Assembly: GCA_030407315.1 (NCBI GenBank)
Contig: JALQPE010002458.1
Location: forward strand, 1-64,000
Reading direction: 5' to 3'
DNA: 64,000 nt
DNA from: Asparagopsis taxiformis
Lineage: Eukaryota > Rhodophyta > Florideophyceae > Bonnemaisoniales > Bonnemaisoniaceae
Within the stretch, counting starts at the first letter, position 1, and each line of letters opens with the position of its first letter. The translations under genes were made by a program, and so were the position numbers. This document shows positions 7,141 to 49,391 of this stretch, in pieces. The notes under the pieces are model-generated. The model did no database searches. It saw nothing but the letters and a program-made list of their open reading frames with translations, and was not told the DNA's origin.

Positions 7141-7178
7141 TAATGAAATAGAACACTAGGTAGTGTTCTATTTCATTA
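7141..7178. repeat. perfect 18-bp inverted repeat
   Basis: Two perfect 18-bp arms (TAATGAAATAGAACACTA) flank a GG spacer. It lies just outside the first family A hairpin, on the 3' side of the minus-strand transposase gene, and may mark an element edge or be an unrelated fold-back. Confidence 0.8.
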
Positions 7179-7269
7179 CAGCTGGCGTGGGCAGAACCAT
7201 GCTTGTGAGCGGAAACGTGTATTGCAGGCTGAGGAGCCAATGATGAAAAATTAGAAAAAAAATGACTAG

Positions 7270-7330
7270 TTACTGCAGTAAAAAGTGATCTAGGAAGATG
7301 CATTTGGTAGATCAGTTTTTACTGCAGTAA
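7270..7330. repeat. family A hairpin, inner part only
   Basis: The arms TTACTGCAGTAAAAAGTGAT and their near-perfect complement surround a short loop. This matches the core of the complete family A hairpins at 11.9, 12.6, 17.0, 22.0 and 22.7 kb, but the outer AAATTTGGTAAT parts are missing. It lies about 300 bp beyond the stop codon of the minus-strand transposase. Confidence 0.75.
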
Positions 7331-7624
7331 AAGAAACCTAATTTTACTATAATTTTATTGTGGTATGTTCTGCCCTGAGGAAGCTGGTTCAGGCTTGAGG
7401 CAGTTCAAGGAATGGAGAAGCTCTGGAAGAAGCATGAATGGTATAGACGAGGAATTAGAGATGGTTACATAGAATAGAACATATTGTCTCACAGGTTTTG
7501 GGACAAGGGACTTAAGTATGGCCAATGTCAAGGTGGATGTATGTGACGGAAACACTACAATATGAGGAAGTTTGTTTACGGGAAGTAATATGGTAGAGAA
7601 GCTTATGTACTAGACCCTAGAGTA

Positions 7625-10600
7625 TCATGCAGTCCTTGGCGGATATCCATCTTCTCTTGCAAAGATAGAGAAGGAACCACCATCCATAAACGAAGGAACT
7701 CCATGCGTAATTCCTCCATTCGAAGTGCCTTGCTCCACAGAACATAATGAAGGGCTACAATTGTGGAGGAGACCAACCTTGCGAACCCCTGAAGTGAGAG
7801 GGAGAAACCAGGAGCCGGAATCGTTGTTCGGAGCAAACGTAGTGGGGGAGGACTTCTGCTTGATAACTGGAAGAACAATAGCGTGTGGTGGAGACAGGTA
7901 TTCCTGGTGAGATTCGTCTATGCAAACGTTTCCAGGTGAAGCAATGTTTCCATCAATAGTCAAGTCAAACACGGTGGTAACAGCCCAAAAAGAAGTCGAA
8001 CAGGTCTTCTGTAGAATTCTAGAAGACGGGGAAGCTGAGTAGCAAGATTGTACTACACAGCCAGAAGCTATTTCTTGTGGCTTTGAAAAGTCCCGAGACG
8101 CAGCAGAGGGCGAAGCTGCACAGGCAGGGTGGGCAGAACTGAGACGTGCTCCCTTGCAAGGTTTTCCACGAAGCATGACTGCATCCGAATTCTGCCCACA
8201 GGAAAAATCCTGCTGTGGTAATGAAGAGGGAACTCCTGTCCACGAGTAATATGAATATGGAGAAGAGAAGAACGGTAAAGAAGACTTATTGAGATGTTCG
8301 AGAAGGGGTTCTTGAAAGAGGTCATGCAGCGTACTATCCGGGAGGTTCTCCATTGATTTACAGTGCTCCCGTCCGAATAGAACACGAAGGAGAAACCGTT
8401 TAGAACGTTGTCTCTCCACAGATGCTGGAGTAGAATTGGAGAAACTTTTCAAAGCAAGATGGAGGCTTCCTTTCCAATAGTTTCCGAGTGCCGCTAACAT
8501 AGCATCCAACTGTCTGTCAGCACCTCCGGAATGCTCTAGACCTCGTTTCATTTGTTGATGTGTTGCTTCGAATGATAGCTCAGCTACCTGGCGAGCGTGT
8601 CCGAGCAGAGGAACAGTGTGTTCAAATGCCTCAATGAGACGGTGCAAGTTTGGCTTATTGTCAAGAATCTTCCTTGCCCGGAATCCAGCAGTCTTGTTTT
8701 CCATCTCAATGTGGTCATTATCATTCGTTACTATACCTTCTGTCTGCATCTTCCGTTTCTTCGAGACCGCTGTGCTCCGCTGTCTGGTAGGAACAGTCTT
8801 GAGCAGGTCATCCACTAGAGTAGCATATTCTTTCGATAGCTGCTGCAGACGACGGAGACTGTTGTGCGCAGAATTCTCTGTAGCTCTCTGTACTGCCTCA
8901 GAACCGTCGATATTTTTTCGTGGTAGGAAGTATGTAGCTGCAGATATAGAGGACAGGAGACGAACAAGTTCGAGAGACAGATGGCGTTGCTCTTCAGAAG
9001 CCTGGAGTGACCTTGAACCGCTACCTTCGGATGACCTTGTAGTCTGCGATTGGAATTTCAGAGAAGACCTGAAGCAGTGTTCGGCGACGAGGAGAACTGC
9101 AAATCTGTCTGAGATTCCCATTGTATGAGTTTCACCTGCGTTGAAGTTATATATCTTGTTCTGATTTGCGAGACCCAATACACGGAGGGCATCCACCATG
9201 AACCTGTCGGCCAGCCTTCTCACACCATCATTAGGCAAGCTTGAAAAAGCATTGTCCAGAGCATCCTTTGCCAGTCCGTGGAGGAGATGGTCAATTCCAA
9301 CAAACGTCGAACGGTATGGGTCCAGAATAGCAGGCACGACAGGTATTCGTAGACCATCGTTTCCGAGTGGTGTCCCGGTTGGAACCAGCCCTTTGGACCT
9401 AGCTTCATGAAGTAGTCTTTCAATGAGATGCAATGGAGTGTCTGTGATATTTTGCACTGTTCTCAAACCCAGATACTTCAAGATGTTTGCAGAACTTTCC
9501 GATGAATGAACAGCTGCAGCTGTTCGCTCGGATGTGCGAAAGTGTGTATCAAAGCTCGAATGTAAACGGGTGTCGTAGCCAAACTGCGAGTTCTTCCCAT
9601 ATTTCCCCCCTCTTACAAAGAAACACAAATGGCATGGGCAGTCTGCGTTGTGCCCCATGACATCCAGCACATGAGAACAGGCAGGATAATCCGATACGAA
9701 ACCAATAAAGTCCAGGAAAATTAGACATTCATTGCCGTCTGGATCGACATCACGAAACCCCGACGTGCATCCTTGAATAATGTCTCTAGAGATATGTCGA
9801 AGGATATGGTTTGTACTAACACCGGGACCTGTGACACCGATGACGCGCACAGCAGAACTGTTCCGGCGACAGTCCAGCGGAAGACCCATTGGGAGCATAT
9901 AGCATCCTCCAGCACTCCCTTTCTTACCAGAGGCTTCATTGAAGTCATCGCAGTATAAAAGGAATGGATAGACGTAGTATGTGGTACCGCAGCTGAGAAC
10001 CCCACGGAGATGTGTAGGATGAAAGGGGCTGGAGCTCGTGCCTGGTTTCAATAACTTGACATTGTTGATTGCACGAGTTCCGCCGACAACTTTGTATTGC
10101 CCTTCAGAGTTGACGAGAAAGAGCAGTTTTTGCGATGGGCCTGGCGGTCCGGGAGAGCTGACGACAAGCCCAATGAAGAACTGTACACCATACTTTTGAG
10201 TAGAGTTGTATTCAAGACTGGGCGATAAAACTGTCAGGTGATCACCCGGCCGAGCATATTCCCGGAACGACTCTTTCTGAAGGATGAATGCGGACCCATA
10301 TGAATGCGGGGAGACCGAAAGCCTACTATGAAATGCGGCACCAGAGTTAATCCACGAAGAAGATGTGAAAGCTTTCAACGACTCATAGCTGGAAGGTAGT
10401 GATTCCTGTTGGAAAAGGGAACTGAGAGTAGGATCTAGAGGAGAGGCGTGCCGCCCAGATATCACGCGAAGCTCCACAATACTACCCCCGAAAGCAGGAA
10501 CCGGAGAGCCATCCTTATCTTCCGCCCTTAGAGTATAGTTTTGTCCTTTCAGAGAGTACTCTCTGAATTTTCCTATCCTGGATGTACACACATTACCATG

Positions 10601-11671
10601 TAAACTTAGTAACTCATCCGAGTCGGAAGCATCCAATTGTGTGTTATCACGCCACGCAAGGTCGAATATTTGTGGCGTAGCAATGTCTGCTCGTGCATAT
10701 TCGCTTGGTGGAACGATAAGTACAGGTGCTGACTGGCCTGTGGTTGCTCGTTCGACGCGGCTTCTTCGTAGAATTGCGGAGGAAGCTACACGGGCTGCAC
10801 TGCGCTCTACGTTTACAGGAAAATAAACGGTTTCTGAACGCAACCATGCATTGTAGAATAGCCACGGTCTCACCTTACGCACTATTGTCGAATAATGAGG
10901 CAGACCTTGCTGAACGTGTTTATTCGTTGAGCCTTTTCTCGCGAAATCGAACAAAACACGATCTTCCTGCAGGCTAGCGGCCGTACTTTTGGTGAAACCT
11001 GTCAGCTTTGCGACAGCACACAGCGTAGTCCATTGTGTCATGTAATTGCGAGCTTTGGCTGGATTGGACGTATTGAAGATGAAAGGAGAAGAGATGAGAA
11101 GTTTAGCCTCTATCTCCTCCTGCAGTAGCAGGTCTTTATCATTCGACGTGGTATCATGTTCTGAGAATACATCATCGGGTTCGTCAGAACTATCGTGATG
11201 GAATTCAGTAGGAACTGTCGCAACAGCAAAAGCAGGTTCAGTCCTAGAAGGAAGTATCATATCACAATCGTCGGGAATGGTGGATAGGTTTTCAACTGCT
11301 GGAAGTGGCAGGGTGTTTCCCTCTTCGCTTTTGGCGTACTCCAGAGAGACAGTGGTATCCATGGGTACCAGAGCAATAGCATGCAAGCTATTGTTCCCAG
11401 TTGTAGACGTATCCAGGACAGGCGAGGAAGGGGGTGTTGCATCTGGGAGCCGGTGGTTGATAGCATTTGGATTCTGGGGAATGTTCAAAGTGCTGTCATG
11501 GTCTATTTGTGGGGGAGGAAGAGGGTTTTGCATTGGTCTCCAGCCCATGTGATGGACGGAGAAAGGGTCAGAAACTGTTCTGGTAGTCGAACGCCTAGCC
11601 CGACTACGACCAGGGTATACATTGTTGTATCGTAGTCGTAGGCCAGTCCTAGACTTTCTCGGTCTTGCCAT
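7625..11671 (-). CDS. TNP2/KDZ-like DDE-type transposase
   Basis: A single open frame of about 1,348 aa. I chose the ATG at 11671 (MARPRKSRTGLRLR) because it matches the basic start of the paralogue at 26956; the frame is open further upstream (ATG at 11746). The N-terminus is basic and disordered. The core has a YPFLLYCDDFN motif (D575-D576), then SAGGCYMLPMGLP, then a DYPACSHVLDVMGH block leading into a CxCHLC cysteine cluster (about 678-683), and a DPYRS...DHLLHGLAKDAL block near 782-800. This order resembles the TNP2/Plavaka/KDZ group of eukaryotic DNA transposases; the exact family assignment is inference. The C-terminus (DGYPPRTA) matches its paralogue, so the protein looks full length. 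It would cut and join DNA in the nucleus. It is the promoter-distal gene of minus-strand cassette A, bracketed by family A hairpins. Confidence 0.72.
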   Translation of the reverse strand: MARPRKSRTGLRLRYNNVYPGRSRARRSTTRTVSDPFSVHHMGWRPMQNPLPPPQIDHDSTLNIPQNPNAINHRLPDATPPSSPVLDTSTTGNNSLHAIALVPMDTTVSLEYAKSEEGNTLPLPAVENLSTIPDDCDMILPSRTEPAFAVATVPTEFHHDSSDEPDDVFSEHDTTSNDKDLLLQEEIEAKLLISSPFIFNTSNPAKARNYMTQWTTLCAVAKLTGFTKSTAASLQEDRVLFDFARKGSTNKHVQQGLPHYSTIVRKVRPWLFYNAWLRSETVYFPVNVERSAARVASSAILRRSRVERATTGQSAPVLIVPPSEYARADIATPQIFDLAWRDNTQLDASDSDELLSLHGNVCTSRIGKFREYSLKGQNYTLRAEDKDGSPVPAFGGSIVELRVISGRHASPLDPTLSSLFQQESLPSSYESLKAFTSSSWINSGAAFHSRLSVSPHSYGSAFILQKESFREYARPGDHLTVLSPSLEYNSTQKYGVQFFIGLVVSSPGPPGPSQKLLFLVNSEGQYKVVGGTRAINNVKLLKPGTSSSPFHPTHLRGVLSCGTTYYVYPFLLYCDDFNEASGKKGSAGGCYMLPMGLPLDCRRNSSAVRVIGVTGPGVSTNHILRHISRDIIQGCTSGFRDVDPDGNECLIFLDFIGFVSDYPACSHVLDVMGHNADCPCHLCFFVRGGKYGKNSQFGYDTRLHSSFDTHFRTSERTAAAVHSSESSANILKYLGLRTVQNITDTPLHLIERLLHEARSKGLVPTGTPLGNDGLRIPVVPAILDPYRSTFVGIDHLLHGLAKDALDNAFSSLPNDGVRRLADRFMVDALRVLGLANQNKIYNFNAGETHTMGISDRFAVLLVAEHCFRSSLKFQSQTTRSSEGSGSRSLQASEEQRHLSLELVRLLSSISAATYFLPRKNIDGSEAVQRATENSAHNSLRRLQQLSKEYATLVDDLLKTVPTRQRSTAVSKKRKMQTEGIVTNDNDHIEMENKTAGFRARKILDNKPNLHRLIEAFEHTVPLLGHARQVAELSFEATHQQMKRGLEHSGGADRQLDAMLAALGNYWKGSLHLALKSFSNSTPASVERQRSKRFLLRVLFGREHCKSMENLPDSTLHDLFQEPLLEHLNKSSLPFFSSPYSYYSWTGVPSSLPQQDFSCGQNSDAVMLRGKPCKGARLSSAHPACAASPSAASRDFSKPQEIASGCVVQSCYSASPSSRILQKTCSTSFWAVTTVFDLTIDGNIASPGNVCIDESHQEYLSPPHAIVLPVIKQKSSPTTFAPNNDSGSWFLPLTSGVRKVGLLHNCSPSLCSVEQGTSNGGITHGVPSFMDGGSFSIFAREDGYPPRTA

Positions 11672-11891
11672 GTCTCGATGACAGACAATTTGCAGGCTCT
11701 GATATTTGTGTGAGGGAACGCGTGTAGGCCTTACTGTAGTGAGCATAGAAACGAAACACAAAGATGTGATGTAAAGCTGTAGAAAGGGAGAACATGAATA
11801 AGTCGACCGTTACAGTCTAATAGTTTAACTATGACCTTGCTCAGTTGCACATACGACTATACTACCCATAAACAGCAATCATTCATGGAAC

Positions 11892-12029
11892 GGGAGATGT
11901 TGAAATTTGGTAATTTTTTTCGCTCCGAAATTACTGCAGTAAAAAGTGATCTAGGTTGGTGTACTGTGCTAGATCACTTTTTACTGCAGTAATTTCGGAG
12001 GGAAAAATTACCAAATTTAAACATCTCCC
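11892..12029. repeat. family A fold-back hairpin (complete)
   Basis: Two arms of about 60 bp flank a loop of about 14 bp. The arms read outward-in as GGGAGATGT, AAATTTGGTAATTTTT, CGCTCCGAAATTACTGCAGT and AAAAAGTGATCTAG, and they differ at only a few positions. It lies about 130-220 bp upstream of the transposase start. Its size and form resemble a fold-back MITE or two abutting terminal inverted repeats. Confidence 0.85.
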
Positions 12030-12583
12030 TGAGCTTCCGGGCGCCAAACTTGGGCTTTTCCAACGATCTGCACCGGAATTAGCCCCATATGCGGCGCTTA
12101 CGACTCTAATGTGTTATATCGAGAGGGAAAGGTACGTACAGGGTAATCGCAATAGGTCATTAGGAGTATTATTGTCATAGGACCCATTCCGCGGTATACT
12201 ACATGTCTATATATAGATGATCTAGGAAGTGAAGTCGACGAGAGAAACTACCAGGTAAAATAGACCAAACTCCTTTAAACCTTCACTTCATGTACCCTAT
12301 GTATGGGATAGCCCCTATTTGGAAAGACTTGGATAGTGCATATTGCATTCCAGCCGCAGCAGGAATTCAAAAGTCTTACACGTATGTTTAGTGGCTGCTA
12401 TGCCTAGTCAGAATTCGGAATGTGTCGTGTACCTATGGGAATGTTGTACAAACTAGTGATTTCAAAATAATGTTGTGCTCTGTGAAGTGTTGCAACATGA
12501 CTAACTTTGTTGAAACAGTGATAGCTCAACCGTGCTTACGTGGCCAGGTTCCCTGGTTTGAGCACCTCTGTAAACGCGGTATC
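12030..12583. other. intergenic, nothing recognised
   Basis: Only short overlapping frames occur here. The segment lies between two family A hairpins whose left flanks share CATGGAACGGGAGATGT (11884-11900 and 12584-12600). Confidence 0.4.
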
Positions 12584-12603
12584 CATGGAACGGGAGATGT
12601 AAA

Positions 12604-12722
12604 AATTTGGTAATTTTTTCGCTCCGAAATTACTGCAGTAAAAAGTGATCTAGGTTGGTGCACTTTGCTAGATCGCTTTTTACTGCAGTAATTTCGGAGC
12701 GAAAAAAATTACCAAATTTTAG
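12604..12722. repeat. family A fold-back hairpin
   Basis: The arms are AAAATTTGGTAATTTTTTCG plus CTCCGAAATTACTGCAGTAA and AAAGTGATCTAG, with complements on the right side, around a loop of about 13 bp. It separates the transposase from the next minus-strand gene, whose 3' end is about 220 bp away. Confidence 0.85.
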
Positions 12723-12944
12723 GACCTCAACGCCAGGGGTCCAGCGCCCTTCGCGACTTACGAAGCACACTGGTTGCAACTAGCATACTACCATTCTTTA
12801 CCTTGCCATGCACCAGAAGGGGAGAGGGCAGAGGACTATCAACGGAAGGAGATTCTGACAAACTACAAGTAGACTATAGGAATGTGGGAGAACATGGAAA
12901 CAAGAGAAATATCAGTTTAGAGCAAGTTATAGTTCATATGCTAT

Positions 12945-14023
12945 CTATTCAACTGTAATATACTCTTCGCTACTACTTTCCTCTTCCTTATCACTATCCG
13001 ACACGTAGTCGTGATCGAAATCGTAGGGCTCCGGCAGAGCATTGGGGTCGTCACCCAGCCCTGGCGCATAAACTAGGTCGTTGACGAGCTGGAGGAGACA
13101 CGCGCAGCCATTGTGTGGACTCGAATATGGTGACCATACGGCATTCCAGTGTTGGAAAGCCTGGTCTTCACGAAATCGTGTTCCTGCCATCCTGGACCTG
13201 CATGTTCCAAGTCTCCACGAGAGACAAAAACAGAGAACGGAGGTATCCAGACCAACTTGGGAACGAGGTGGGGCCAGACGTCCAGGAACGCCTTACGTGG
13301 GGAGTTGAGGAAGGTATGGCTGCGAGGTCGTACCAGAATCGGGGAACCCACTGCACCAGTTGCAATGAATGCATAGTCAGGATCTGGTGCAGGTTTACCG
13401 TAGTATCGGTTGGGTTCCCCTGGCGGTGGACCGGGGTATGTGAAGTCCAGATGAAGTATCTGACGATCACAGCCCGACCCTGTGAGCAGCATCCGAAGAC
13501 CTGTTCTGCCAAACCTGAGCTTGGAGCCTTCCTTGAATCCCTTCAATGACGAAACGGAATCTTCTAAGAGGAGCTTTTCTGCTATAATAGCGAGCAGAAC
13601 ATCGACAGAAACTTTATCGTGAGCGATTGGACCAGACGCGAGCGTGTCCAGGTCTTCGACAACGGCCTTGCAGGGGGTCATGTACCGCTGCCGAGACGGC
13701 CCCCCTTCTGCATCCTTGGCTGTAGAACCGGAATTGAGAATCGAAATCCACGCACCTTCCTCGTTTTCCGAGAACTTCTTGGCAAAGGCTGACAGAAGGT
13801 CGTGGATACTAGACCGCACTTCCTTAGCTCCTAGTATGTTCTCCAGGACAACATATCCATCAGAATCAATACTAGCCCTTGCCCGCTCGAAATACACAGC
13901 CCTCTCGATGGACGAAGAACCAGCCATGGAGTCAATATCCTCCCTCAGCTCCTCCACCTCCCCTTCCGTCAAGTAGAACCCAGAGCGGTGTTCGGATGAA
14001 GTAGGCTCGAAACTGAACGGACG
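12945..14023 (-). pseudogene. 2OG-Fe(II) dioxygenase domain, split over two frames
   Basis: The frame opens after a TGA near 14024 and runs to 13073. It starts PFSFEPTSSEHRSGFYLTEG, which corresponds to the 'SRMKYYITEE' segment before the dioxygenase domain in the intact paralogues at 32095 and 37056. Visible features are a GYVVLENILG segment (typical first strand of PhyH-like folds), HLDF (HxD iron ligands), RGDLEHAGPGW (distal His) and a following RVHTM. A second frame (12945 to about 13130) then continues with an acidic tail (DFDHDYVSDSDKEEESS), so a frameshift or an intron lies near 13080-13130. The substrate is unknown. The domain would normally be the C-terminal half of a ParB-dioxygenase protein whose other parts lie just upstream (14121-16506). 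Confidence 0.65.
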
Positions 14024-14120
14024 AACGATTCAGCTTCGGCCGCGGAAGTATTCTCGAGGAGGTGGGGAGGTGGACTCGGCTGTTCGTCCTCGTACCGGTG
14101 GACCAGAAACCCCTTCGAAG

Positions 14121-14621
14121 TCACCTTCGATTTTGTGGGGTTTCTTCCTCCTCCTCACTCTCACCTTCATTGTCACGCTCCTTCTCACCCGAAGACGGGG
14201 GTTGACCAGGAAGCGGAAGGGAGGAAGGAGGGGAAGAAGTGCTGCCAAGAGCGATGAGCTGCTCTGCAACGGCAGCACTTCTGGTCTTCGACCGAGTAAC
14301 ACGGGCCGGAAGCGGACTAAAGGTATCGTCCCTTTTCCTCTTTTCCCCTCGTCGGGTACTCTTGGAGGGCTTCTTGACCTTGCCCAGAGATATGGGAGTC
14401 TTCTCTCCTACGGTTCTCCTCTTGTCCTTGACACCCGCTTCACCCTTGTCCTGTTCCACCGACTCGGTCGTTGAGCCTCCTTTGCGAAAAGGATTGAACT
14501 CATCACCATCCCACGCTTCTTGTAACGTGACCCCTGCAGGAGGGGTCCAAGAAGGGGCGTCATTGGGTTGACGACCATCATAGCACACGACGGGAGCAGA
14601 CGAAGACCATGTCTCGCTCAC
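14121..14621 (-). pseudogene. basic linker part of the ParB-dioxygenase gene
   Basis: This frame overlaps the ParB part by about 44 bp and holds a Lys/Arg-rich, disordered stretch (STRRGEKRKRDDTFSPL, TRSKTRSAA) followed by an acidic Glu run. The same kind of linker, including a KKRR..D basic cluster, sits between the ParB and dioxygenase domains of the intact paralogues, so this is read as the middle of one gene. A third frame (about 14150-13985) carries sequence resembling the paralogues' 'FTDEQENSLPD' segment, which implies a further frame break. Confidence 0.45.
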
Positions 14622-16506
14622 CTTGATTCAGGTACTTGATGGGGATGAGATGGTGGACGCGGGGATAGTCGCACAGATTGTGAACTGGCTTAGAGTTGCA
14701 CGCTGTGCATTTGTGCACAGCGGCAGAGCCGGGAAAGCGACAGTGCGGTCCAAGAGAGCAAGGGAAGGGGCGTGGAGTAGTTTCGTCGGCCGGAATGCGA
14801 ATGGCACGCGAAACGGGATACTCCGCACCACCCCCCAGCGGTTCAGGGACTTCCGCAGTTTCGGGGTTCTGCTGTTCCCCCATAGGAGTGGGGGGAACTG
14901 GAGCAGGGGAGGGTGGTGACACAGCCATAGGAGACTTGGGGGGAGAAGATGGAACCCGGGCAGCGGAGGGTGTTGAGACTGCCATGGGAGACTGAGCAGG
15001 AGAGGGATGAGGAGAAGGGGTGGTAGGATTGGCAGGAGGGGTGGTGGGATTGGCAGGAGGGGTGGTGGGATTGGCTGAGGACCCGGGAGCAATCTGCTGC
15101 GTTTGTTCAGATGGAACAGCAGCAGAAATGTCCAAGGGACCAGTTTCATCCTCTGGGAGGGGCTCAGAGGGAAGGGGGACAGGGAGAGGCTCGATGATAG
15201 TTTCTCCGAACTGTGTCGGAGAACGATCCTTGCCAGGCACTTGCGATGGTGATCCTGGCGGAGGGACAGGTGGAGGAGGAGCACTCGTTGAATCCCTCGC
15301 ACCCTCCTCCATTACCACGTCATTGGCGGGAGTGGTATTCGCAGCAGAGTCCAACGGCTCAGTACGAGGAGGAGTCTGTTGCTTCGGTGCAACATTGAAA
15401 CGATGCTGGATGACCGAACGGAAATCTTCTATACGAAGATCTTGGTTCTCCGTTCTCTTCGGCACCGGCTCCTCCTCGTACTGAACCATACGCTTGAACA
15501 CGGATTTCCAGGTCGGGATCATTTCCTTTCCATCCGGTTCAAGGTCTTCCAGGTCTGCCAATTGCTCCGTACTGAGGTCAACCATGGGTGCTAGTTCACG
15601 GATGACCTCGTAGAAATCTCTAACGTAATTGAGATATGTACGGAGCTGGAGACCTGGGATACGTCCAAACGAATGCATCAGCAGCACAGACCGGTAGTGA
15701 AGGCATTTGACCATCAATTCACTAGCACGGTCTTCAGCCTTCGTGAATGCTGTGTCTTTTAGGACCAGAAGGCTGATGCCGACCTCGTTCTCCTTCCTCC
15801 CGGAAGCCATCTTGTAGGCTGCGTACGTGCGAGGCGAACGTCGCATATTCATAGCCACATTGACGATGGACGTCACTGTACTCTTCCGGAGGATGCCAGA
15901 AAAATGACGTTGGAAGAACCAATTAGACAGCTGCGAAGCCGTCATGTTGGCCAGATTCCTATCCCCAGGTTGAGCGTACTTGAGGTTGCAATTGTATATG
16001 CTAATGATAGCATGTATACGATCCCGGATGGTGGTTGGCAAAACAGTGTGAACAAGCTCATTCAACCGCTGACTGAGGTAAAGGACATCCTCCATAGTCA
16101 TTGGCGCACCATCCGGCCTCAAGGCTTCCTGGACAGGAACGTTGTCCACAACGGAAGCTAGACGCTCAACCTGTTCCTCCTTCGCCCGCACCAGAGCTCC
16201 ACGACGATGAAGACCGTCCGCTATGTAGTAGCGTGTTCCATCGGGCCCAAATGGTAGATTTACCACAGTCATGGAGCCCACAGAAGAGGTCTGAAAGCCT
16301 TCGAGAACCATCTTCTGGAACAGCACTTCAACATGAGAGACATCAACCTCGCGGGATGTTTCTTCCGTGACATGAATGTCAGCGATCGGAAGTTTCGTTT
16401 CCCTGAACAGGTAGTTCGAAAGCGAGGTGCCAGTGCGGAACGTGGCAGGGATGGTGAGCTCTCGAGCTGCACTGGTGGTCGACTGAGGGATAGTACGCGG
16501 AGGCAT
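14578..16506 (-). CDS. ParB-like domain protein with C-terminal zinc-finger-like segment
   Basis: About 642 aa from the ATG at 16506 (MPPRTIPQSTTS); open frame upstream of it is pyrimidine-rich and looks untranslated. The ParB/sulfiredoxin-like domain has IADIHVTEE, SHVEVLFQKM and a YIADGLHRR motif (D97), corresponding to the DGxHR motif of ParB-like folds. An alpha-helical part and a long Pro/Thr-rich linker with NPTTPPA repeats follow. The C-terminus has a Cys/His cluster (CSLGPHC...HKCTACNSKPVHNLC) resembling a small zinc finger. At the end, AATCAAG|GTGAGC looks like a 5' splice site, so this exon might join the basic linker downstream. ParB-like domains bind DNA and some bind or hydrolyse nucleotides; which applies here is unknown. 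Confidence 0.6.
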   Translation of the reverse strand: MPPRTIPQSTTSAARELTIPATFRTGTSLSNYLFRETKLPIADIHVTEETSREVDVSHVEVLFQKMVLEGFQTSSVGSMTVVNLPFGPDGTRYYIADGLHRRGALVRAKEEQVERLASVVDNVPVQEALRPDGAPMTMEDVLYLSQRLNELVHTVLPTTIRDRIHAIISIYNCNLKYAQPGDRNLANMTASQLSNWFFQRHFSGILRKSTVTSIVNVAMNMRRSPRTYAAYKMASGRKENEVGISLLVLKDTAFTKAEDRASELMVKCLHYRSVLLMHSFGRIPGLQLRTYLNYVRDFYEVIRELAPMVDLSTEQLADLEDLEPDGKEMIPTWKSVFKRMVQYEEEPVPKRTENQDLRIEDFRSVIQHRFNVAPKQQTPPRTEPLDSAANTTPANDVVMEEGARDSTSAPPPPVPPPGSPSQVPGKDRSPTQFGETIIEPLPVPLPSEPLPEDETGPLDISAAVPSEQTQQIAPGSSANPTTPPANPTTPPANPTTPSPHPSPAQSPMAVSTPSAARVPSSPPKSPMAVSPPSPAPVPPTPMGEQQNPETAEVPEPLGGGAEYPVSRAIRIPADETTPRPFPCSLGPHCRFPGSAAVHKCTACNSKPVHNLCDYPRVHHLIPIKYLNQGERDMVFVCSRRVL

Positions 16507-17275: not shown

Positions 17276-17277
17276 GT

Positions 17278-24291: not shown

Positions 24292-24299
24292 AAAGGGGG

Positions 24300-37049: not shown

Positions 37050-37055
37050 GTCCCC

Positions 37056-41368: not shown

Positions 41369-41786
41369 GCACCCCGCCGGAACTGCCAAAGCTGTAAGCA
41401 GTCTGGCTTCACCCTCTCCCCCATTTCTCTACTCCGCCTTCAGCATCCCAGCCTCTCTGGTGACGACTGACGCCTTTCGTTTCCCCCCTCACGCCCCCTC
41501 TCGCAATGAAATACTCGTCTATTACCACGATAGGCTACTCGTACTGCCGCCTTAATTTTCCTCTACACACACCCTCCCATCCGTCTCTTCCGTACTACGA
41601 TCTTAGGCTATCCTACCTTACGATTATAGTTGTATAGTGAGTAGCTAGAGTCCTACTTATTGACGACTATAGTGCACCGGAACCGGCGCCGGTTCCCGCC
41701 CGGGCGGGTTGAATATATATTTTATGCCGTGAGGCACAGGTACCATATGGTCGCTGTGGCTCACGGCACAAGGAGTAGATTTTGCG
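41369..41786. other. intergenic with a small perfect palindrome
   Basis: No gene is supported. GGAACCGGCGCCGGTTCC near 41680-41697 is a perfect 18-bp palindrome, and TGCCGTGAG...CTCACGGCA near 41724-41767 forms a looser hairpin. Confidence 0.5.
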
Positions 41787-42360
41787 ACCAACAGCCGTCC
41801 AAACCATCCTCCCGTGATGTTCCCTACTTCACACTTCGCTTCTCATGTGAGACAGCAGGGAGTTTCGTCCTTCTCCCATCTTGGTAAAGGTACCTTTACC
41901 AAGAAGGGAGAAGGACGAAACTCCCTGCTGCTTACAGCTGAAGCCGTTTACCAGGGTTCCTTACAGCAAAGTCATCGTTACGATGACTTTGCTGTAAGAA
42001 AACAAATCATTACAGCAGCCACGATTTCTTTACCGGGTAAAAAATTGTGGCCGCTGTAATGAAACGTTTTCTTACAGCAAAGTCATCGTAACGATGACTT
42101 TGCTGTAAGGAACCGTTTCCTTGCAGTGGCCAAAGAATTTTTTACCGGGTAAAAAATCAGCAAGAAATTTTACCGGGTAAAAAATTGTGGCCGCTGTAAT
42201 GTTTTGCTTTCTTACAGCAAAGTCATCGTTACGATGACTTTGCTGTAAGAAAACGTTTCATTACAGCGGCCACAATTTTTTTACCCGGTAAAGAAATCAT
42301 GGCTGCTGTAATGATTTGTTTTCTTACAGCAAAGTCATCGTAACGATGACTTTGCTGTCA
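41787..42360. repeat. family B element end, long palindrome and four-copy array
   Basis: An end sequence (CAACAGCCGTCCAAACCATC onward) contains a 78-bp near-perfect palindrome at 41853-41930 centred on GGTACC (arm start CAGCAGGGAGTTTCGTCC). Then come TTACAGCTGAAGCCGTTTAC and 37-bp copies at 41961 (T), 42072 (A), 42212 (T) and 42324 (A). It lies beyond the 3' end of the ParB-methyltransferase-SET gene. Confidence 0.88.
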
Positions 42361-42665
42361 GCATCCCCGGTAAACGGCCCGCACTGTAATGGGGTGACTG
42401 CTTCTCCTACATCGCTCTGTTACTGGTGTTCTACATGCTGCGTTGCTACACAATTTCGCACTCACATCTTTCTAGTTTCTCTCCCTTTCGTATCCATAGG
42501 TATAGCAGTTGAAAAGTGGATAGTTTGCACTCCAGGCCGCAGATGCCTTCCTGCAGTCATGTCACGATTGTTGTAGTGTAGTCTATAATATCTAGCGCTC
42601 TTGGAAGATGATGCACAGTCTATTGTCTCTGTCAATGCGTGTTTACTCAAATCTATCAAAGTAGC

Positions 42666-45428
42666 TCAGTTAGCTGGCCAATATTTTCTACCATAGTCAG
42701 CAAATATCTCCTCATCAGCTTCAACGTCTCTGGTCAGAACGACCTTGACAGCATGGGGATTCTTGATATTCGAAGCAAAGTCCGGTTTGTCTATGGCATC
42801 GCCTTGTCGAAACTCGGCTGACTGTGTTCGACTCACCTCGGTCGCTTTCTCCGTTCCGTCAATGACCCGACAATCATTGAGGTAGCTGGTACAATTATAG
42901 ACCGCTGGAACGAGCCAGACCTTCCGAACAGGTGCACCCCTCCCTATGTACGTGGTTTCCAATTCCATGTTGTAGTCCTGGAACCTCTGTCCTGTGCACC
43001 CAAATCCTTCCGGGCCGTACATCACTGATCTCTGCGGTTCCGAGTCTCGAATCTTCGCATAGAAAATCGTCCCGTTGTACCAGCCAATGACCGTCCCCTT
43101 CTTCAGTTTCTTCGCCGCGAATACGCCAAACCCACCACCTCTTACCTCCGATTGCGAAACATAGACACCGTAGAATGCGGCATCAGCAGCCAGAATCGCG
43201 TCCGGGTCTATGCTCCAAAACGAGTGCATGTCCTCGGCCGGCCACTGGTCCATAGGCACCCCGCTCAATCTGTGAAGCATAGAACCGTCCTTCTTCATTG
43301 ACGCAACGAACACAAGCAGATGGTTCGGCAATGCTGTCACAGCAGGTAAACCTTCTGGTGCATCTGAGATGTGCTTCTGACGAAGCCTTGGAGCTTTTCC
43401 TGTGACCGGTACCGACTCGTCCCCAAGAATACTCTCCACCTCACGCTGCAAGATCCCCCCATATCGCCCGGCTTTCACCTCACTGACGAAAGCATGCAGT
43501 ATCCACTCCTGCGATGCATCGTGGCACCTTTTTTCCTTCTCACACCCAATGAACCGACGATACGTACCATCCCTCAACGTCATACACGCTATGGCTGTGC
43601 TGTATGTTCCCGAGAAGAAATCCATCACGATATCGTTCTGCTTCGAAAATCGTTCCAGAAGCTCACGAAGAGTGGTCAACGCCTTCTGCTCATGGCGCAG
43701 TCGGTTGTTCTGCCCATCGTATTGAGCTTCACCAGCCGACAACCTCGGAACGTTGTCAATCGCGTTGGTGAACCCAGGGTGCCTCGATATGTCCGGATTG
43801 TGCAACCTGTAATCCACCATATCGTATGCAGCCATACCCTTCCCCCGCTTATACGCATGGATAACGAAATCGTGCATATTATGCAGTGTGCACGTTTTCG
43901 TCGATGGATTGGACGTAAAGCTGTGTGGTCGGCGAGATAGCACGACTGGAACACTGTCCACAATCATCTTGCCAGGCTCGGCATTTCTGATTGCATCCAT
44001 CCATGCCACGAGTTGGCGCACGCTGGAATAGATTAGAGCATGACCGCCAGGCCGAAGAACTCGAACTATTTCACACGCAACACTCGCCAACTCTTCCGGC
44101 TCCAGAATATCGTACTCCGAGTTTTCTCTGCCGCCTTCCCGCCTCGTGTTGAATGGAGGATCAGTGAGCACAAGCTGAACACTGTCCTCCAACACGCCAT
44201 CTTCCAGGAAACTAATTTTGTCCTCCACCTCTTTGGCTACATCAGTAGCGTCACAATTCACAGTGTGAATGTAACGCCCCATCACAGCTTCCAGCTTGGT
44301 GACATATTCTGGCTTGGATTCCTTTCCGACGTCAACGAGCGGTGCTTCTGTAGGCGATACAGTGTCAACCTCCATAGCGTCATCCTCGGCCGCACCTTCT
44401 CTTGTTGCTGTTTCGCTAGCAACCGCCGCATTATCGTCCTCTCCACCACCGCGCTCCAGCCTAGCCTTCTTCCTCTGTGGCTCCAGACTATCCTCTTCTA
44501 TATCCTCGCTGCCATTGTTTGGCACTGCTGCGGATATTTCCATCTGCGCAGGTGCACCTTCAAGGATGCCAGGCTCGGGCGTATCCTCAAGACTGTGCAA
44601 CTCATCCATGGTCAGAGGAAGCTTTCGTTGCTCTCGGGTTCGCAATAACCAAGCCTTCAGCCTCCTCTGACCATCCAGGGCATGAGACGTGTTCAACTTG
44701 GCTCGCATGAACGAGTTCAATCCGAACTTGTCAGGAGTGTCGAAAAGCAAGGCTCGAAGTCTCTGCATCAGCTGACCACGCTCGGCGAACACATTCACCT
44801 CAGTGACACATTGGCGTATCGACATCAGGAAGGCGCTTGTCAATGATCGCAGCCTTGCATCCACAGCCACTGGAAGGTCGGCACAGAACCCGTTTTCACT
44901 GTCTACAGTTTTCGGGACAATGGTCAGGTTTTTCCGATGCTCCTCGACCGCGCAGCCATCAGACCGATTCGGGAGTGACCTGAAGCAAAGGCTCGCAGGA
45001 TCGAATACCATGAACGGCCAGCACATCGATTCAACATCCTCATACCCCAACACTCTTGCCCCGGTATCCCACGCAGCTAACACACGGTCGACAACAAATC
45101 CAAGCTGGTTGGCTTGCGCACTGGATGTTGCAATTCCAACCATTCCACCACCACCAATGGCCCCGGATGTGGCTCTGGCCCGCCTAGATGGCACACTGCC
45201 CATCTCCTTACTGCGAATAGCCAAGATACACTGGCACATCATAACCATCAGCCTCCTGAACCGCTTCTGGCTAGCCTGCAAAGAATCTTGCATGTCGGAT
45301 GTAGCGCCGTCCAGAAAGTACCTGCTCGAAAGCAGTTCGCGGTTCAGTGGAGAGGACAATTCTCCGCGGGGTGTCTTGCCAAACATTTCGACGGCACGAG
45401 AACTAGTCACCCCACCTGTTTCGGAAAC
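42666..45428 (-). pseudogene. DNA methyltransferase (beta class) + SET domain (copy B)
   Basis: A continuous frame of about 920 codons without an ATG near its start; it joins the ParB-like frame upstream across a break at about 45407-45433 (a GGGG run), so the original gene was one. A helical part (VLAAWDTGARVLG) leads to a linker with a basic cluster (EPQRKKARLERG), then LVLTDPPFNTRR (motif IV, D about 417 counted from codon 45410), GGHALIYSSVRQLVAW, and DFFSGTYSTAIACM (motif I, D about 597). Motif order IV then I marks the beta class; DPPF fits N6-adenine transfer. The last about 165 residues form a SET domain: SEVRGGGFGVFAAKKLKKGT, GWYNGTIF, NCTSYLNDCR, and ADEEIFADYGRKYW. All core motifs look intact, so the only visible defects are at the 5' end. 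Confidence 0.75.
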
Positions 45429-46132
45429 TCAACCATCCTCGGAGAATTACCCATCTCTGCATTGAGTCCCCATGCATGACAAAACATTTGCCACAGACGC
45501 AAATCAATCGCACTCGAATCTTCTGCTCGGTGATACGGCCGAAGCACAGCCAGGATAGACATGCATGAGCTGTACTGCGGTTTACCACTCAGGCTTGAAG
45601 CAATTTGGCCGCTTGGATCGCAGGATTTGATCCAGCCCAACACATCGGCCATCCTCACAGACGAAATATGAGCGTACTTGTCCTTTCCTTTTTGGACCCA
45701 GTACTCGTCTCTGAGATCAACGGCGATCATCAGATACTCAACAAACATCATGCGCCTTTGCAGGCCTGCAATGTCGTTGGATGTCGTCGCTCTCACACGG
45801 TCCAGCACAACAGCAGTACTGCTGTTGGTGTCCGCCACGATAGACTCTTCTCGCATAGGAATCGTAACGCCAGGAGGAAAGACGCCCTTCTCCATTCCAC
45901 GTACAATTGCCATGCAGCGGTGCGCTCCATCCAATATCTCCAGAACGCCTTCTCGAAACCTGCCAGTCACGGGATGAGCTGTGTCATAACCGCTGTTGCG
46001 AATGCTCTCCATGAGCGCTTCCACATGACTTGCATCAACATCGCGAATCGATACGAATTTGCTGACTTGATTGGGGTCGATGAACACCCATCAGTCGTGC
46101 TTTTCACCGTGATTGTGGAACGTTCCTTCCAT
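45407..46132 (-). pseudogene. ParB-like N-terminal domain of methyltransferase-SET gene (copy B)
   Basis: An ATG at 46132 opens MEGTFHNHGEKHD, then an in-frame TGA (46093-46091), then WVFIDPNQVSKFVSIRDVDA, a clear ParB-like start. The domain continues with SHVEALMESIRNSGYD and EILDGAHRCMAI (the DGxHR motif), then helices (MADVLGWIKSCDP). The frame ends at TGA 45409-45407, one frame away from the methyltransferase. The TGA at codon 14 fits CGA to TGA. If the stop and the frameshift are real, the protein is not made in full; sequencing error or recoding remains possible. Confidence 0.7.
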
Positions 46133-46645
46133 GGCGAACAAAGGTAGAGTTTTTAAGAAAGGGATAGTTGGTTGCTGCTTGACCAGGGTGGCGCAAAGCA
46201 GAAGTTGGTTGTTTAAAACAAAGTGTCACCGAGTGGTAGCACTTCGGTGGCTGTTTCCTTTCCACCCCTGTCCGAACCTTTACAAGATAACTACATCGAC
46301 TGTTAGCTCAATAATCAATGTAATACTAAAGTAATACTCAAAATATTTTTCCATGCAATTTATTGGGCCCCGTAACAACTCTAAGCGTATCTTTGTAGTC
46401 CAATCGTATGCATCCGACATTCACTTCTAGAACGATTATTCACATCAAATTTTATGCTGCAATCAGTTCATGGCAGACATCATCCACACTGACGTGTCAA
46501 TTTTGTCAATTGTCCATTCTATTTCTACACCACCTAAACATCTCTTCTGGACCTTTCCAATCCCCCTAGTATATACTACTCTTTAGCAGAAGGTAACGGT
46601 TAGGCTTTCACTACTACAACAATTCTATCCCATAGCTATCCCAAC
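46133..46645. other. divergent intergenic region
   Basis: It separates the minus-strand ParB-methyltransferase-SET gene from a plus-strand gene, so promoters for both should lie here. It is AT-rich in the right half; no specific motif is claimed. Confidence 0.4.
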
Positions 46646-48007
46646 ATGCTTCCTCTCGCTCCAAACGACGTTATAGAAGTTCAATGGGAACTTCGGCCGT
46701 TTGGGAGGAAACGAAAAATTGTGTGGTGGTCTGCAATCGTCAAGGAAATTACTCAGGTCAAGACTGAAACAGATCCATTCCTCCATGCATTTCTCGAATA
46801 CAAAGCTGAATATGGTTTCGACTCTACCCTTTCTCAAGTCAAGATTTCAGATCGTAACGAGCTCGTCGACAAGGATTCCGGAAGGGTTCTCCCGTGGCGA
46901 AGTGGTGAGCTTCGCAGTATGGACTCACCTGCATCCCCAGCAGAGAGAGACCCGGACTATAGCATTGACCACACTCGCCACCGCCACCGCGGCATCCTTC
47001 AAGATTGCTCGGCGGATAAAATGAAGAAGACCATAGCAGAAATGCTGGCAAGATTGGAAAAGCTGGAGTCAGCTGCCAAACATCCTCTTCCCCCTCCATT
47101 CGATTCCAACAGCTCCATGACCTCCTCTGCTCTGACTGTATGTAGCATTCTGTTTCAGAAGCTTGGTGTGTACACGGACAAGCCCCTCTCCCTCCGGATG
47201 ACAAAATCCGAGTACTCCAGGGGAATGCGACAAACATCGCAAGAAGAAATCAGAGTACAGGCTGACTGCTCCCTTGCTCAATTCCGCACTATTGCCATTC
47301 AATGCAAGGCGAAAGAGAATCGTGACGTTCTCTTCCTGCCGTCCTTTGAGGACATCACCTTTCCCTCTGGAAATGAGTCGGATCTTTCCATCATTTTCCC
47401 CACCTTTCAGGCACTATGTGACTCCATAGGTACCTCGCAACACGGGTTCCAGAAAATATTGGTGAAGAGCAGGGCGGAACGCGATGGAGGCAGCTCATCG
47501 ATTGTCCGAATTTTAGGAAATCTAGTCGACGTTGATTGCTCTCATGATGCTCCTTCTTCCGCATTTCTCGTCGGCTCATCTGCTTACGTCCTGTCCAGCC
47601 CAGACCAACGTATGACAGTTCTTTGCAGAGACTCCTACGAGTTTGACCATGTCAACAATACATTTTTACATCCCCTATGTCTTAGCCAACTATCACAGTC
47701 TAGCATCGTGGACTCTTTCCACCTACGTGATAAGGCTACTGTTACTTATGGAGCAACGTTTTCGTTACTGTGGAGACGTATTCAGCGCCGAGCTTGTTAC
47801 AGCACTTTCCAGCCTCTATCAACCGCAGAGACGTTTGGTACACTACATCTACGCTTACCTTGCTGTATTTTCAGTGGTACTACTATATGCCAGGAGCTTG
47901 AAGACATTGGCTATGAGGCTATCTCTCGTCTTGGCTTCAATGCGGATTCAGACACTACCCACCCACCCTCTCCTCCACCTGCCACCTGCAGTCCGGAGCA
48001 AAAATGA
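46646..48007 (+). CDS. unknown 453-aa protein with Tudor/chromo-like N-terminus
   Basis: A complete frame from ATG 46646. The first about 85 residues (IEVQWELRPFGRKRKIVWWS, AIVKEI, FLEYKAEYGF, VKISDRNELVD) have the spacing of small beta-barrel chromatin readers such as Tudor or Agenet domains; this is a visual guess. A short coiled coil follows (MKKTIAEMLARLEKLESA), then a globular Ser/Leu-rich region without a recognised family and a Pro-rich tail. It is divergent from the ParB-methyltransferase-SET gene and convergent with the family X gene at 48492. A chromatin-reader role would fit the neighbours, but is not shown. Confidence 0.5.
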   Translation: MLPLAPNDVIEVQWELRPFGRKRKIVWWSAIVKEITQVKTETDPFLHAFLEYKAEYGFDSTLSQVKISDRNELVDKDSGRVLPWRSGELRSMDSPASPAERDPDYSIDHTRHRHRGILQDCSADKMKKTIAEMLARLEKLESAAKHPLPPPFDSNSSMTSSALTVCSILFQKLGVYTDKPLSLRMTKSEYSRGMRQTSQEEIRVQADCSLAQFRTIAIQCKAKENRDVLFLPSFEDITFPSGNESDLSIIFPTFQALCDSIGTSQHGFQKILVKSRAERDGGSSSIVRILGNLVDVDCSHDAPSSAFLVGSSAYVLSSPDQRMTVLCRDSYEFDHVNNTFLHPLCLSQLSQSSIVDSFHLRDKATVTYGATFSLLWRRIQRRACYSTFQPLSTAETFGTLHLRLPCCIFSGTTICQELEDIGYEAISRLGFNADSDTTHPPSPPPATCSPEQK

Positions 48008-48491
48008 TAAAGCACACCTATCCGTAGTTATCCTGTTCCTGGGTATTCCATTCTAGAGCTCCTGTGGCCATCAATTTCTAGTAAAGACGGATACCCTCGC
48101 CCCTTCTTACTTCGACTATTCCACTACCTGTCTCTGCGCTTTTCCTTCGACTTGACACTATCGTCTGACTGGTTTCCTGATGTCTCGCATCTATCTACTT
48201 CCATCTATTACAAAATTCAACTCAACAGAAATTTTATTTCTTCATTCTTCGTCTACTACACCGAAACTGGTTTCATCCGATACTACTCCCCTTCATTCTC
48301 GATTTCATCATCGACGAATACCTTCACATATTCTGCATCTCCTCCGTCCTCTTCCATAGACCTGAAGCTCTCCTCCAGCACTGATTCCCCCCCCATCGTC
48401 TACATTCAGTTCTTCATATCTATCACGCGATATAGTCAAAACCTCCTCATTCATGAACCGACTACTCACCCGCTCCCCGGAAGAAGCAGTT
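48008..48491. other. 3' region between convergent genes
   Basis: The segment is pyrimidine-rich on the plus strand; one 145-codon frame is Ser/Thr-rich and has no features of a real protein. Confidence 0.4.
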
Positions 48492-49391
48492 TCACTGCTT
48501 CATTGATTTCCCGGATTGCGCTCCTTCCACCTCTGTTCCACTTTGAAATTTCAAAATCGTTCGGAACCCGTATGCAAGTATGTAGATGAATTGCAAGGAG
48601 TATTCTGAACGTCGCAGGAACATGTTCTTATCAGAACATTGCGTGTAGGCGACTGCAAAGTTCAGTGCAACCTCTACTAAATTGATCCTCCTAGTCAAAA
48701 ACCTCTTGTCCGGTTCTCCAATTATTTGAACTTCGTACTCGACTTTGAATAGCATTTCTTTTCGCACTGCAATGAAGTCGCGAAGAATCTTCATATTCTT
48801 GTCATCCATTGCTGCACGCTCCGCTGCATTCATTTTCCTCTGCGCCGAGTACAGACTTGGAACTGACTCAATGTCCAGCCCACCGTCGTGCAAAAGATGC
48901 TCCATTCGGACTGAACCTTGAAACCCACTGTATAGAACGAATCCAAGATCTCGGATGAACCGGTTTCGCACATGATCTCTGGACTTGTTCATAAACCCGG
49001 TCACTGCCGTGAGTGCCGATTTCATCACAGTGATGCCTACCTCCTTTCTGTGCAACGGCCCATTCTCACCAACCTTTCTTCGCTTCTGCTTTCGAGCGGC
49101 CCCATCACTTCCCTCGGACGTCCCATGCATTCCATCCATGCGAGCAGAGTCCGTTCCGCGAATTGTCTCCTCAATGGTCCCGGTAGTCACATACCCCCGC
49201 GCCCTCCACCGTTCGATACCTTCCGACGTTCCATTGGAGCTGGAACGGTCTCCTCTCTCTCTGAAAGAATTGTTTTGACACGTATTCTTGATTAAAGAGG
49301 TCACAACTTGGCAGCGCAATTCAATGTGGTTCCGGCCGACAAGCGTCCTATTGAACACATCCTTTCGCTCATTGCTCTGCCTGGCGAACAT
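48492..49391 (-). CDS. family X protein, 299 aa, unknown function
   Basis: A complete frame from ATG 49391 (MFARQSNERKDVF). The middle has a nuclear-signal-like ARKQKRRKVGENG. The C-terminal half is helical (VMKSALTAVTGFMNKSRDHV, LRDFIAVRKEMLFKVEYEVQ) and aligns by eye with the last frame of the broken gene at 23007-24291. No known domain is recognised. Its position next to cassette B, like its relative next to cassette A, suggests a recurring partner of the ParB/methyltransferase/transposase set. Confidence 0.5.
   Translation of the reverse strand: MFARQSNERKDVFNRTLVGRNHIELRCQVVTSLIKNTCQNNSFRERGDRSSSNGTSEGIERWRARGYVTTGTIEETIRGTDSARMDGMHGTSEGSDGAARKQKRRKVGENGPLHRKEVGITVMKSALTAVTGFMNKSRDHVRNRFIRDLGFVLYSGFQGSVRMEHLLHDGGLDIESVPSLYSAQRKMNAAERAAMDDKNMKILRDFIAVRKEMLFKVEYEVQIIGEPDKRFLTRRINLVEVALNFAVAYTQCSDKNMFLRRSEYSLQFIYILAYGFRTILKFQSGTEVEGAQSGKSMKQ

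Follow-up and report, generated by a model that had tools for sequence, protein, structure and literature searches.

The red alga Chondrus crispus has enlarged EnSpm/CACTA families, among the closest systems described, which are cited as 16-20 kb long with 4-5 ORFs (Kojima et al. 2013, cited in PMC6431247). Chromatin-related proteins encoded by transposons are also on record. As described in PMC12730594, fungal DNA transposons, including EnSpm and Plavaka, carry a TET/JBP dioxygenase, HarbingerS and MuDR transposons of Phytophthora carry SET, and plant Vandal/MuDR elements encode anti-silencing factors, presented there as a regulator. Transposon-borne SET and TET/JBP are thus already known. 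In the literature searched, we found no report of a ParB-fused adenine-type methyltransferase-SET protein together with ParB-dioxygenases.

Here we analysed a 64,000-nucleotide stretch of DNA from the red alga Asparagopsis taxiformis (contig JALQPE010002458.1, positions 1 to 64,000; the window). We found that two sets of genes in it belong to two giant cut-and-paste DNA transposons with CAC..GTG terminal inverted repeats (TIRs), element A (set 1) and element B (set 2), which share a cargo of transposase, ParB-linked dioxygenase(s), methyltransferase-SET gene and family X (Table 1). On the cited description of the Chondrus families, A and B resemble them as multi-ORF transposons of EnSpm type in a red alga, and B is larger; over 572 aa, the methyltransferase-SET protein of B shares 30% identity with one from Chondrus. 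The fungal elements are likewise DNA transposons with an epigenetic dioxygenase, but neither a ParB fusion nor a carried DNA methyltransferase is described for them in PMC12730594. The Phytophthora elements share a transposon-encoded SET protein with A and B but are of different superfamilies (PMC12730594). The Vandal/MuDR system, as presented there, works like our proposal in that an element-encoded protein controls silencing sequence-specifically, although that protein is a regulator and not an enzyme of these kinds. RAG1, ProtoRAG and Transib have the same predicted transposase core fold, at ~8-12% identity in structural alignments; A and B differ from them by an extra transposase C-terminal domain and by the accessory genes. 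Taken as a whole, it is probable that A and B are giant TIR transposon families whose accessory proteins control the chromatin of their own copies.

Table 1. Features of elements A, B and C (window positions unless a contig is given).
Feature	Position	Strand	Remarks
Element A	5175..24277		left terminus CACAGGATAAGCAA at 5175; B interrupts at 24277
A transposase (P0001), predicted CMCT-type	7625..11761	-	
A ~100-bp palindromes	11895..12725, 17008-17140, 21988-22118, 22650-22781; partial 7262-7335		A-specific
A ParB-dioxygenase (putative single gene)	13073..16965	-	three ORFs: ParB 14578-16965, linker 14121-14627, dioxygenase 13073-14029
A methyltransferase/SET gene	18206..21917	-	four ORFs: 20685-21917, 19402-20877, 18776-19477, 18206-18775
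A family X	23656..24277	+	cut by B; sequence runs on in C1847 and C1754, where A is uninterrupted
Element B	24278..49412		left terminus CACTACGGTGTTG at 24278; last ~1.3 kb missing in window
B subterminal repeats	24299..25154		GACAGT/ACTGTC; 35-bp VNTR
B transposase (P0003)	26956..30759	+	predicted RAG1/Transib-like core
B palindrome clusters	30874-31413, 35604-36703, 41049-42378		three intergenic gaps
B ParB-dioxygenase 1 (P0004)	32095..35355	+	DGSHR..A, HTD..H
B ParB-dioxygenase 2 (P0005)	36987..40574	+	ParB signature and HxD..H motifs
B ParB + beta-class DNA methyltransferase + SET	42666..46090	-	Pfam N6_N4_Mtase, SET
B ORF5	46646..48007	+	453 aa, matches no family
B family X	48492..49391	-	upstream end lost at 49412 in window
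Element C, third family	49411..64000		left end CACGTCTGTG; runs past window, abuts B
DUF7869 ORF (assigned to C)	50827-53340	-	
ParB-methyltransferase (assigned to C)	53542-56574	-	
Dioxygenase-like ORF (assigned to C)	C2332:66430-67467		beyond window
ParB ORF (assigned to C)	C2332:67600-70530		beyond window

An initial annotation had proposed that the same gene types occur twice in the window, and this was borne out by BLASTP matches between set 1 and set 2 for the transposase (E 4e-83), methyltransferase (1e-39), dioxygenase (5e-26), SET (4e-17), ParB of the dioxygenase gene (3e-7) and family X (3e-5). Homologous genes are 22-36% identical, which makes A a distant relative of B, and the annotation was right that the sets are not a recent segmental duplication. 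The limits of the sets had to be redrawn: A starts at 5175 rather than 7141 and is cut at 24277, the junction at which B was inserted, and B ends at 49412, with a third, different element from 49411. Because of this interruption of A and the loss of the last 1.3 kb of B, neither is complete in the window.

Complete copies were found elsewhere. A 22.7-kb copy of A (C1847:27089-49779) runs from the CAC..GTG-type left terminus CACAGGATAAGCAA to the right end TTGCTTATCCTGTG; its left edge is common to the window copy, with different flanks, and the right TIR is also present in C1754. Complete B copies have their right end, CAACACCGTAGTG, 25-27 kb from the left end CACTACGGTGTTG, and the stretch bearing it is present in C289, C44, C74, C168 and C334. 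Family X of B is longer in C289, with 526 codons open. On C2332, the contig that carries the window, neither the A tail nor the missing B right end was found up to 74,200, and no C2332 location was among the 100 of 169 A-tail matches listed. The starts of B ORF5 and of an ORF of 529 aa from the tail of A look alike by eye, and BLASTP gave no match between them below E 1; they may be one more position shared between A and B. The right end of element C was not found, and we infer that the four ORFs assigned to it in Table 1 all belong to one element.

Genome-wide, in 141 Mb, we counted 1,063 B left ends, 468 transposases and 433 methyltransferases, and by 30-mer dioxygenase 2 occurred at 575 places and family X at 470. 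The B transposase was full length, open and shown as 100% identical at all 37 places scored (window included), which were drawn from 2,173 first-look candidates. Family B is very young, with hundreds of nearly identical copies, and by a crude estimate makes up about a tenth of the assembly. For the A transposase, 34 places were scored: 18 at 95-100% identity (window included), 15 at 87-88% and one split copy, with internal stops in 8 of the 34. Every part of these elements is high-copy, as a chance meeting of abundant independent repeats would have it. However, order, strand and spacing recur with common edges, and counts upstream and on the opposite strand are low; within elements bounded by TIRs, the B genes keep to one strand and to a small number of fixed offsets. 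The genome-wide check for independent scatter thus left the set standing, and the recurring offsets refute chance co-occurrence for B; as an account of the locus it has next to no probability. For B, the recurring order, strand and spacing inside TIR-bounded elements give strong support to the earlier suggestion of a set that moves or stays together. For A the comparison covered transposase and tail, the tail being at the expected place for 7 of the 34 transposases in an incomplete tail list.

The transposase had been labelled TNP2/KDZ-like, and this was wrong. Pfam holds a KDZ transposase model, yet 11 transposases scanned against Pfam with E allowed up to 10 matched three families, none of them KDZ. 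KDZ (Zisupton) elements make 8-bp target-site duplications, and those of the CMCT clade (CACTA/EnSpm, Mirage, Chapaev, Transib and Plavaka) are 2-5 bp (EnSpm 3 bp). An 8-bp repeat was absent from all four clean B flank pairs; 2 bp were duplicated in two of them (C74, C334) and 3 bp in none. C64 was left out of this count because its right end lies inside another B copy, and C126 because of its degenerate right terminus; the stretches examined of C390, C436, C1549 and C2162 yielded no B right end. An empty-site comparison gave a 1-nt net duplication for B in C168, and no duplication was seen in the two A copies examined. Together with a predicted RAG1/Transib-like fold, these results led us to reject a KDZ type.

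TIRs of the CMCT clade read 5'-CA..TG-3', and those of EnSpm CAC..GTG. The CAC..GTG ends, a C(2)C motif and the predicted fold together fit placement in the CMCT clade. The motif, C648-x2-C651 after the second D, is invariant in 11/11 sequences, with catalytic residues assigned by eye. CMCT transposases have an H(3-4)H motif ahead of the last E; the conserved His pair here, H915-x7-H923, is spaced differently. The A and B transposases are 28-31% identical. Plavaka (PF18759) matched 2 of 11 relatives weakly (best E 5e-4, 19.8 bits against a cut-off of 26.3) and did not match P0003 itself, and a transposase profile found nothing convincing among PDB sequences. The predicted structure tentatively suggests a BAH-like domain at the C-terminus of the B transposase.

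In the methyltransferase-SET gene of B, Pfam recognised N6_N4_Mtase (E 1.6e-16) and SET (E 3e-6). The methyltransferase is of the beta-class, bacterial/phage type, with DPPF before FxG, and its target is probably N6-adenine. Canonical SET motifs are NHxCxPN/DY; here DY is invariant in 4/4 and NHxC is replaced by N-D. The window copy is split by a one-nucleotide frameshift at a point where two other genomic copies differ, and a database protein, P0009, reads through intact. For set 1, a ParB domain had been claimed in the corresponding gene and was unsupported: ORF 20685-21917 gave no BLASTP match to the set-2 protein below E 1 and no Pfam match in its scanned part (20685-21746), and its ParB motif is degenerate by eye. 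The phage-like methyltransferase, together with the size and long uninterrupted genes, could point away from a transposon and towards an integrated virus or the relic of one. We consider this very unlikely given the TIRs, RAG1-like transposase and subterminal repeats; moreover, methyltransferase matches in viral contigs were only short, at 4 loci, and a pattern scan of 2.9 million such contigs found no transposase relatives.

The DGxHRxxA signature was present in all seven ParB-like domains aligned, the A methyltransferase gene being left out for its degenerate motif. The ParB-like profile phrog_1033 matched four of the seven (best E 3.7e-6); Pfam ParB_N matched none, and across the genome hit one place only, outside the window. 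Canonical ParB partition proteins have an HTH and form a CTP-dependent clamp on parS; an AlphaFold2 model of P0004 (mean pLDDT 34) was too poor to use. All four putative 2OG-Fe(II) dioxygenases have the HxD..H facial triad, and no Pfam family matches any of them, a difference from the TET/JBP-carrying fungal transposons. ParB and dioxygenase profiles found nothing convincing among PDB sequences, and no P0005 homologue was among 7,990 database candidates scored. By comparison with B, the three A ORFs carrying DG.HR..A and HxD..H appear to form one ParB-dioxygenase gene.

Hairpin families said to differ between the sets are real: A and B have distinct palindromes. A has five of ~100 bp and one partial, and three that were folded gave z of -13 to -18; three from B gave -10 to -19. 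The 15-bp core of the B palindromes, TCATCGTAACGATGA, has 17 copies in B and none elsewhere in the window, and there are no palindromes between the later B genes. GACAGT, counted on both strands, occurs 33 times in the first kb of B and 16 times in the last kb of the C289 copy, against 0.37 per kb in the interior.

In the mechanism that we propose, the RAG1/Transib-like DDE transposase would excise and insert the element, aided by the dense subterminal repeats and perhaps by a BAH-like reader. The accessory proteins would travel with the element to exert control over chromatin on its own copies. Their domains (N6_N4_Mtase, SET, HxD..H dioxygenases, ParB and perhaps BAH) fit the marking and unmarking of its own chromatin, as the initial annotation had supposed, and the enzymes may mark the element's own DNA, perhaps via the family-specific palindromes. 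ParB-type domains may recognise these palindromes as parS-like sites and spread or dock there, bringing the methyltransferase, SET domain and dioxygenases to the element; with marks set or erased, it could escape silencing or tell its own copies apart. A stronger form, which we regard as a tentative possibility, is a self-addressed eukaryotic epigenetic system: ParB-type clamps, loaded on the family-specific intergenic palindromes much as ParB is on parS, would bring adenine and histone methylation, as well as erasure by oxidation, to the element's own copies, and a BAH-bearing RAG1-like transposase would read the chromatin. With its own palindrome-ParB pair for each family, many families could coexist and amplify.

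Alternatively, the methyltransferase might mainly mark ends or new copies, gating the substrate or timing of the transposase, with chromatin effects secondary. Dam methylation gates IS10/Tn10 in bacteria, and the enzyme here, of bacterial/phage type, travels with a transposase; but timing alone would not account for SET, for a pair of dioxygenases or for palindromes between the genes, and we judge this reading unlikely. It is also quite improbable that the transposon merely captured phage- or host-like enzymes of no use to it. Short B derivatives, with dioxygenase 2 ~4.3 kb after the left end in 17 of the 100 left ends listed, lack some genes, so that not every copy needs every gene. However, A and B keep the same gene set despite their divergence, the methyltransferase motifs DPPF and FxG are invariant in 4/4, and relatives P0010 and P0014 (~44% identity) are predicted as proteins of 1,169 and 1,233 aa.

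In our favoured reading, of chromatin control over the element's own copies, a presumed writer and a presumed eraser of chromatin marks, and possibly a reader, are combined in one mobile unit. Recent B copies of different lengths allow asking which accessory genes transposition needs. Furthermore, these results suggest that genes annotated in red algae as phage-like DNA methyltransferases may belong to transposons.

Element B, one of three giant transposon-like units in the window, has a single left edge at 24278, as determined by comparing the window with the sequence around the B transposase on four further contigs. Its left terminus is CACTACGGTGTTG, and its right terminus, CAACACCGTAGTG, is found on contigs C289, C44, C74, C64, C168, C334, C337 and C454 of the same genome. 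Full-length copies measure 27.2 kb (C44), 25.3 kb (C74) and 26.1 kb (C168), the C64 copy is a 15.5-kb mosaic, and the window copy is without its final 1.3 kb. GACAGT repeats are dense at the termini (33 in the first kb; 16 in the last, counted in the C289 copy) and occur at 0.37 per kb inside.

Positions of the three elements and associated features (C2332 is contig JALQPE010002458.1, whose first 64,000 positions are the window)
Feature	Contig	Positions	Description
Element A	C2332	5175..24277	Transposase (-), ParB-dioxygenase (-), methyltransferase-SET (-), family X (+), cut by B; in uninterrupted copies followed by a tail ORF (-)
Element B	C2332	24278..49412	Transposase P0003 (+), ParB-dioxygenase 1 P0004 (+), ParB-dioxygenase 2 (+), methyltransferase-SET (-), ORF5, without family (+), family X (-)
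Element C	C2332	from 49411	Left-end sequence repeated directly at 72599
L061	C2332	66430-70530	Past the window; dioxygenase-like ORF adjoining a separate 976-aa ParB ORF
Complete A copy	C1847	27089-49779	
285-aa ORF in A	C2332	5363-6220 (-)	45-bp tandem repeat (5934-6093); no family match
ORF across repeats	C2332	62998-63906	72-bp repeat array (63269-63544), copies diverged
A left end and flank	C1754	168900-173400	4.5 kb, 99% to window 3205-7698; A without B
Nested B copy	C913	27620-32950	B begins within A-like sequence, near a second, inverted B copy; nested insertion here too
L001	C1526	7582-7839	Sole place reported above cut-off in a genome-wide Pfam ParB_N search

The genome holding the window comprises 141.5 Mb in 3,156 contigs; the published L6 assembly of Asparagopsis taxiformis is described as 142.47 Mb in 3,308 contigs (PacBio/Canu) with 70.67% repeats (PMC12115072). 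Pattern searches of this genome, allowing up to two mismatches, gave 1,063 matches for the left end of B, 468 for its transposase, 433 for its methyltransferase, 575 for dioxygenase 2 and 470 for family X, and the reversed control pattern gave none every time. By a crude sum B amounts to about 14 Mb, or 10% of the assembly. Linkage was counted on common contigs among the matches listed (about the first 100 per part), taking partners on the same strand that lay downstream at a distance of up to 25 kb. The left end was followed by the transposase in 51/100 cases (upstream 4, opposite strand 6), dioxygenase 2 by the methyltransferase in 35/94 (2 and 3), and the methyltransferase by family X in 60/92 (4 and 3); the transposase was followed by the methyltransferase in 24/99 (3 and 5), by dioxygenase 2 in 19/98 (2 and 2) and by X in 15/99 (1 and 3). 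Chance would give about 0.04-0.05 per site, and the fractions are underestimates because a contig ending inside an element hides its next gene. Among the 60 listed methyltransferase-X pairs, 45 have an offset of 4,795-4,803 and eight of about 3,500; since some offsets are shortened by such fixed amounts, internally deleted forms have multiplied too. A short derivative also recurs (C121, C135, C228, C212, C49, C59), with a left end and then dioxygenase 2 at about 4.0-4.3 kb; a second left end in the same orientation lies 2,125-2,167 bp past dioxygenase 2 at 8 of the 44 dioxygenase-2 sites listed.

Thus element B moves, and its genes move together, as the initial annotation had suggested for the set; instead of the independent scatter that it had named as the alternative, the linked genes of B recur at set offsets. 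From 2,173 first-look candidates, all 37 scored transposase places were open over 1,267 aa and displayed at 100% identity, and six copies with flanks, the window's own included, were about 99-100% identical to the window apart from changes in repeat number, indicating that B is very young. Clean flank pairs were gc/gc (C74), ca/ca (C334), tt/ta (C44) and gt/tt (C168); two of the four match over 2 bp (chance probability of at least two, 0.02, uncorrected for inspecting 1, 2, 3 and 8 bp). The C168 copy was inserted into a repeat. Unoccupied, this site reads ATCCATGTTGCAGCC, a form that agrees with all 100 listed of 204 genome-wide matches (reversed control, 0), and the filled site differs from it by a net duplication of one nucleotide. 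On C179 and C841 this target sequence belongs to a tandem array whose unit is about 2,268 bp long.

Element A begins with CACAGGATAAGCAA and ends with TTGCTTATCCTGTG. Its copies on C1847 and C1754 continue across the position of B (C1847 junction, ...TTTAGCTA / TGATATTG...), so B was inserted into A; the C1754 stretch is a duplicate locus or the other haplotype of the window's A left end. The A transposase was found at 34 places: 18, the window's among them, are 95-100% identical, 15 belong to a sister family at 87-88%, and one is split; eight of the 34 carry internal stops. Among 100 of the 169 genome matches to the A tail (up to three mismatches), at least 7 of the 34 transposases have a tail 11.5-13.0 kb away in the expected orientation, and two more have one elsewhere on the same contig.

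The BLASTP matches between A and B indicate that they are the same kind of element: transposase (28% identity, E 4e-83), dioxygenase (30%, 5e-26), ParB of the dioxygenase gene (26%, 3e-7), methyltransferase (36%, 1e-39), SET (25%, 4e-17) and family X (22%, 3e-5). These matches bear out the earlier claim that the gene types occur twice in diverged copies; as it also stated, the two sets are unlike in order and orientation. The claim that both sets hold a ParB-methyltransferase-SET gene is only partly confirmed: methyltransferase and SET stand, while ParB in the A gene is without support, its motif being degenerate and the first ORF, in the expected ParB place, having no BLASTP match to B below E 1. 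ORF5 of B and the A-tail ORF start alike by eye, though likewise without a match below E 1.

Element C starts with CACGTCTGTG inside B, where the uninterrupted B in C289 reads GCTGG/CATCCG. It encodes a ParB-methyltransferase without SET and a DUF7869 protein (Pfam E 2e-49); no A- or B-type transposase was seen in it, and it is a guess that the DUF7869 protein is a transposase. The L061 ORFs add another, third form of the ParB-dioxygenase pair; they are putative members of C, whose left-end sequence recurs beyond them as a direct repeat, with no right end found.

With the A methyltransferase gene excluded for its degenerate motif, all seven ParB domains aligned, which come from the three elements and one relative, share an unvarying DGxHRxxA signature; four match a ParB-like PHROG (best E 3.7e-6) and none matches Pfam ParB_N. 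The putative dioxygenases are so named from HxD..H, present in 4/4 sequences, none of which matches a Pfam family; the structure model of P0004 has a pLDDT of 34. The methyltransferase-SET protein of B is a predicted enzyme by its domain matches (N6_N4_Mtase, E 1.6e-16; SET, E 3e-6). DPPF and FxG are invariant in its four relatives, one from Chondrus crispus; where the SET motif NHxC would stand, their alignment has N-D. In PMC12115072 (Figure 4C legend), the contig with the bromoform (mbb) gene cluster bears genes labelled as site-specific and adenine-specific DNA methyltransferases; these may be copies of such transposons lying next to the cluster.

Several features of A and B are of known kinds: Chondrus has EnSpm elements of unusual size that hold 4-5 ORFs (Kojima 2013, as cited in PMC6431247), and there are transposons carrying SET in Phytophthora or TET/JBP in fungi (PMC12730594). 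The Chondrus entries, which enter here by way of the citing paper, may already hold ORFs of this set. No report of this gene combination was found in the literature searched, which covered few subscription journals.

Both elements carry palindromes. In B, 17 copies of a 15-bp core are confined to the gaps from the transposase through the two dioxygenases to the methyltransferase, with none between methyltransferase, ORF5 and X; the gaps of A hold their own palindromes of about 100 bp, unrelated to those of B, and six folded examples gave z of -10 to -19. ParB proteins act on palindromic parS, which makes these palindromes natural candidate ParB sites. Together, the domains and the element-specific palindromes suggest that the transposon-borne enzymes would mark the element's own DNA.
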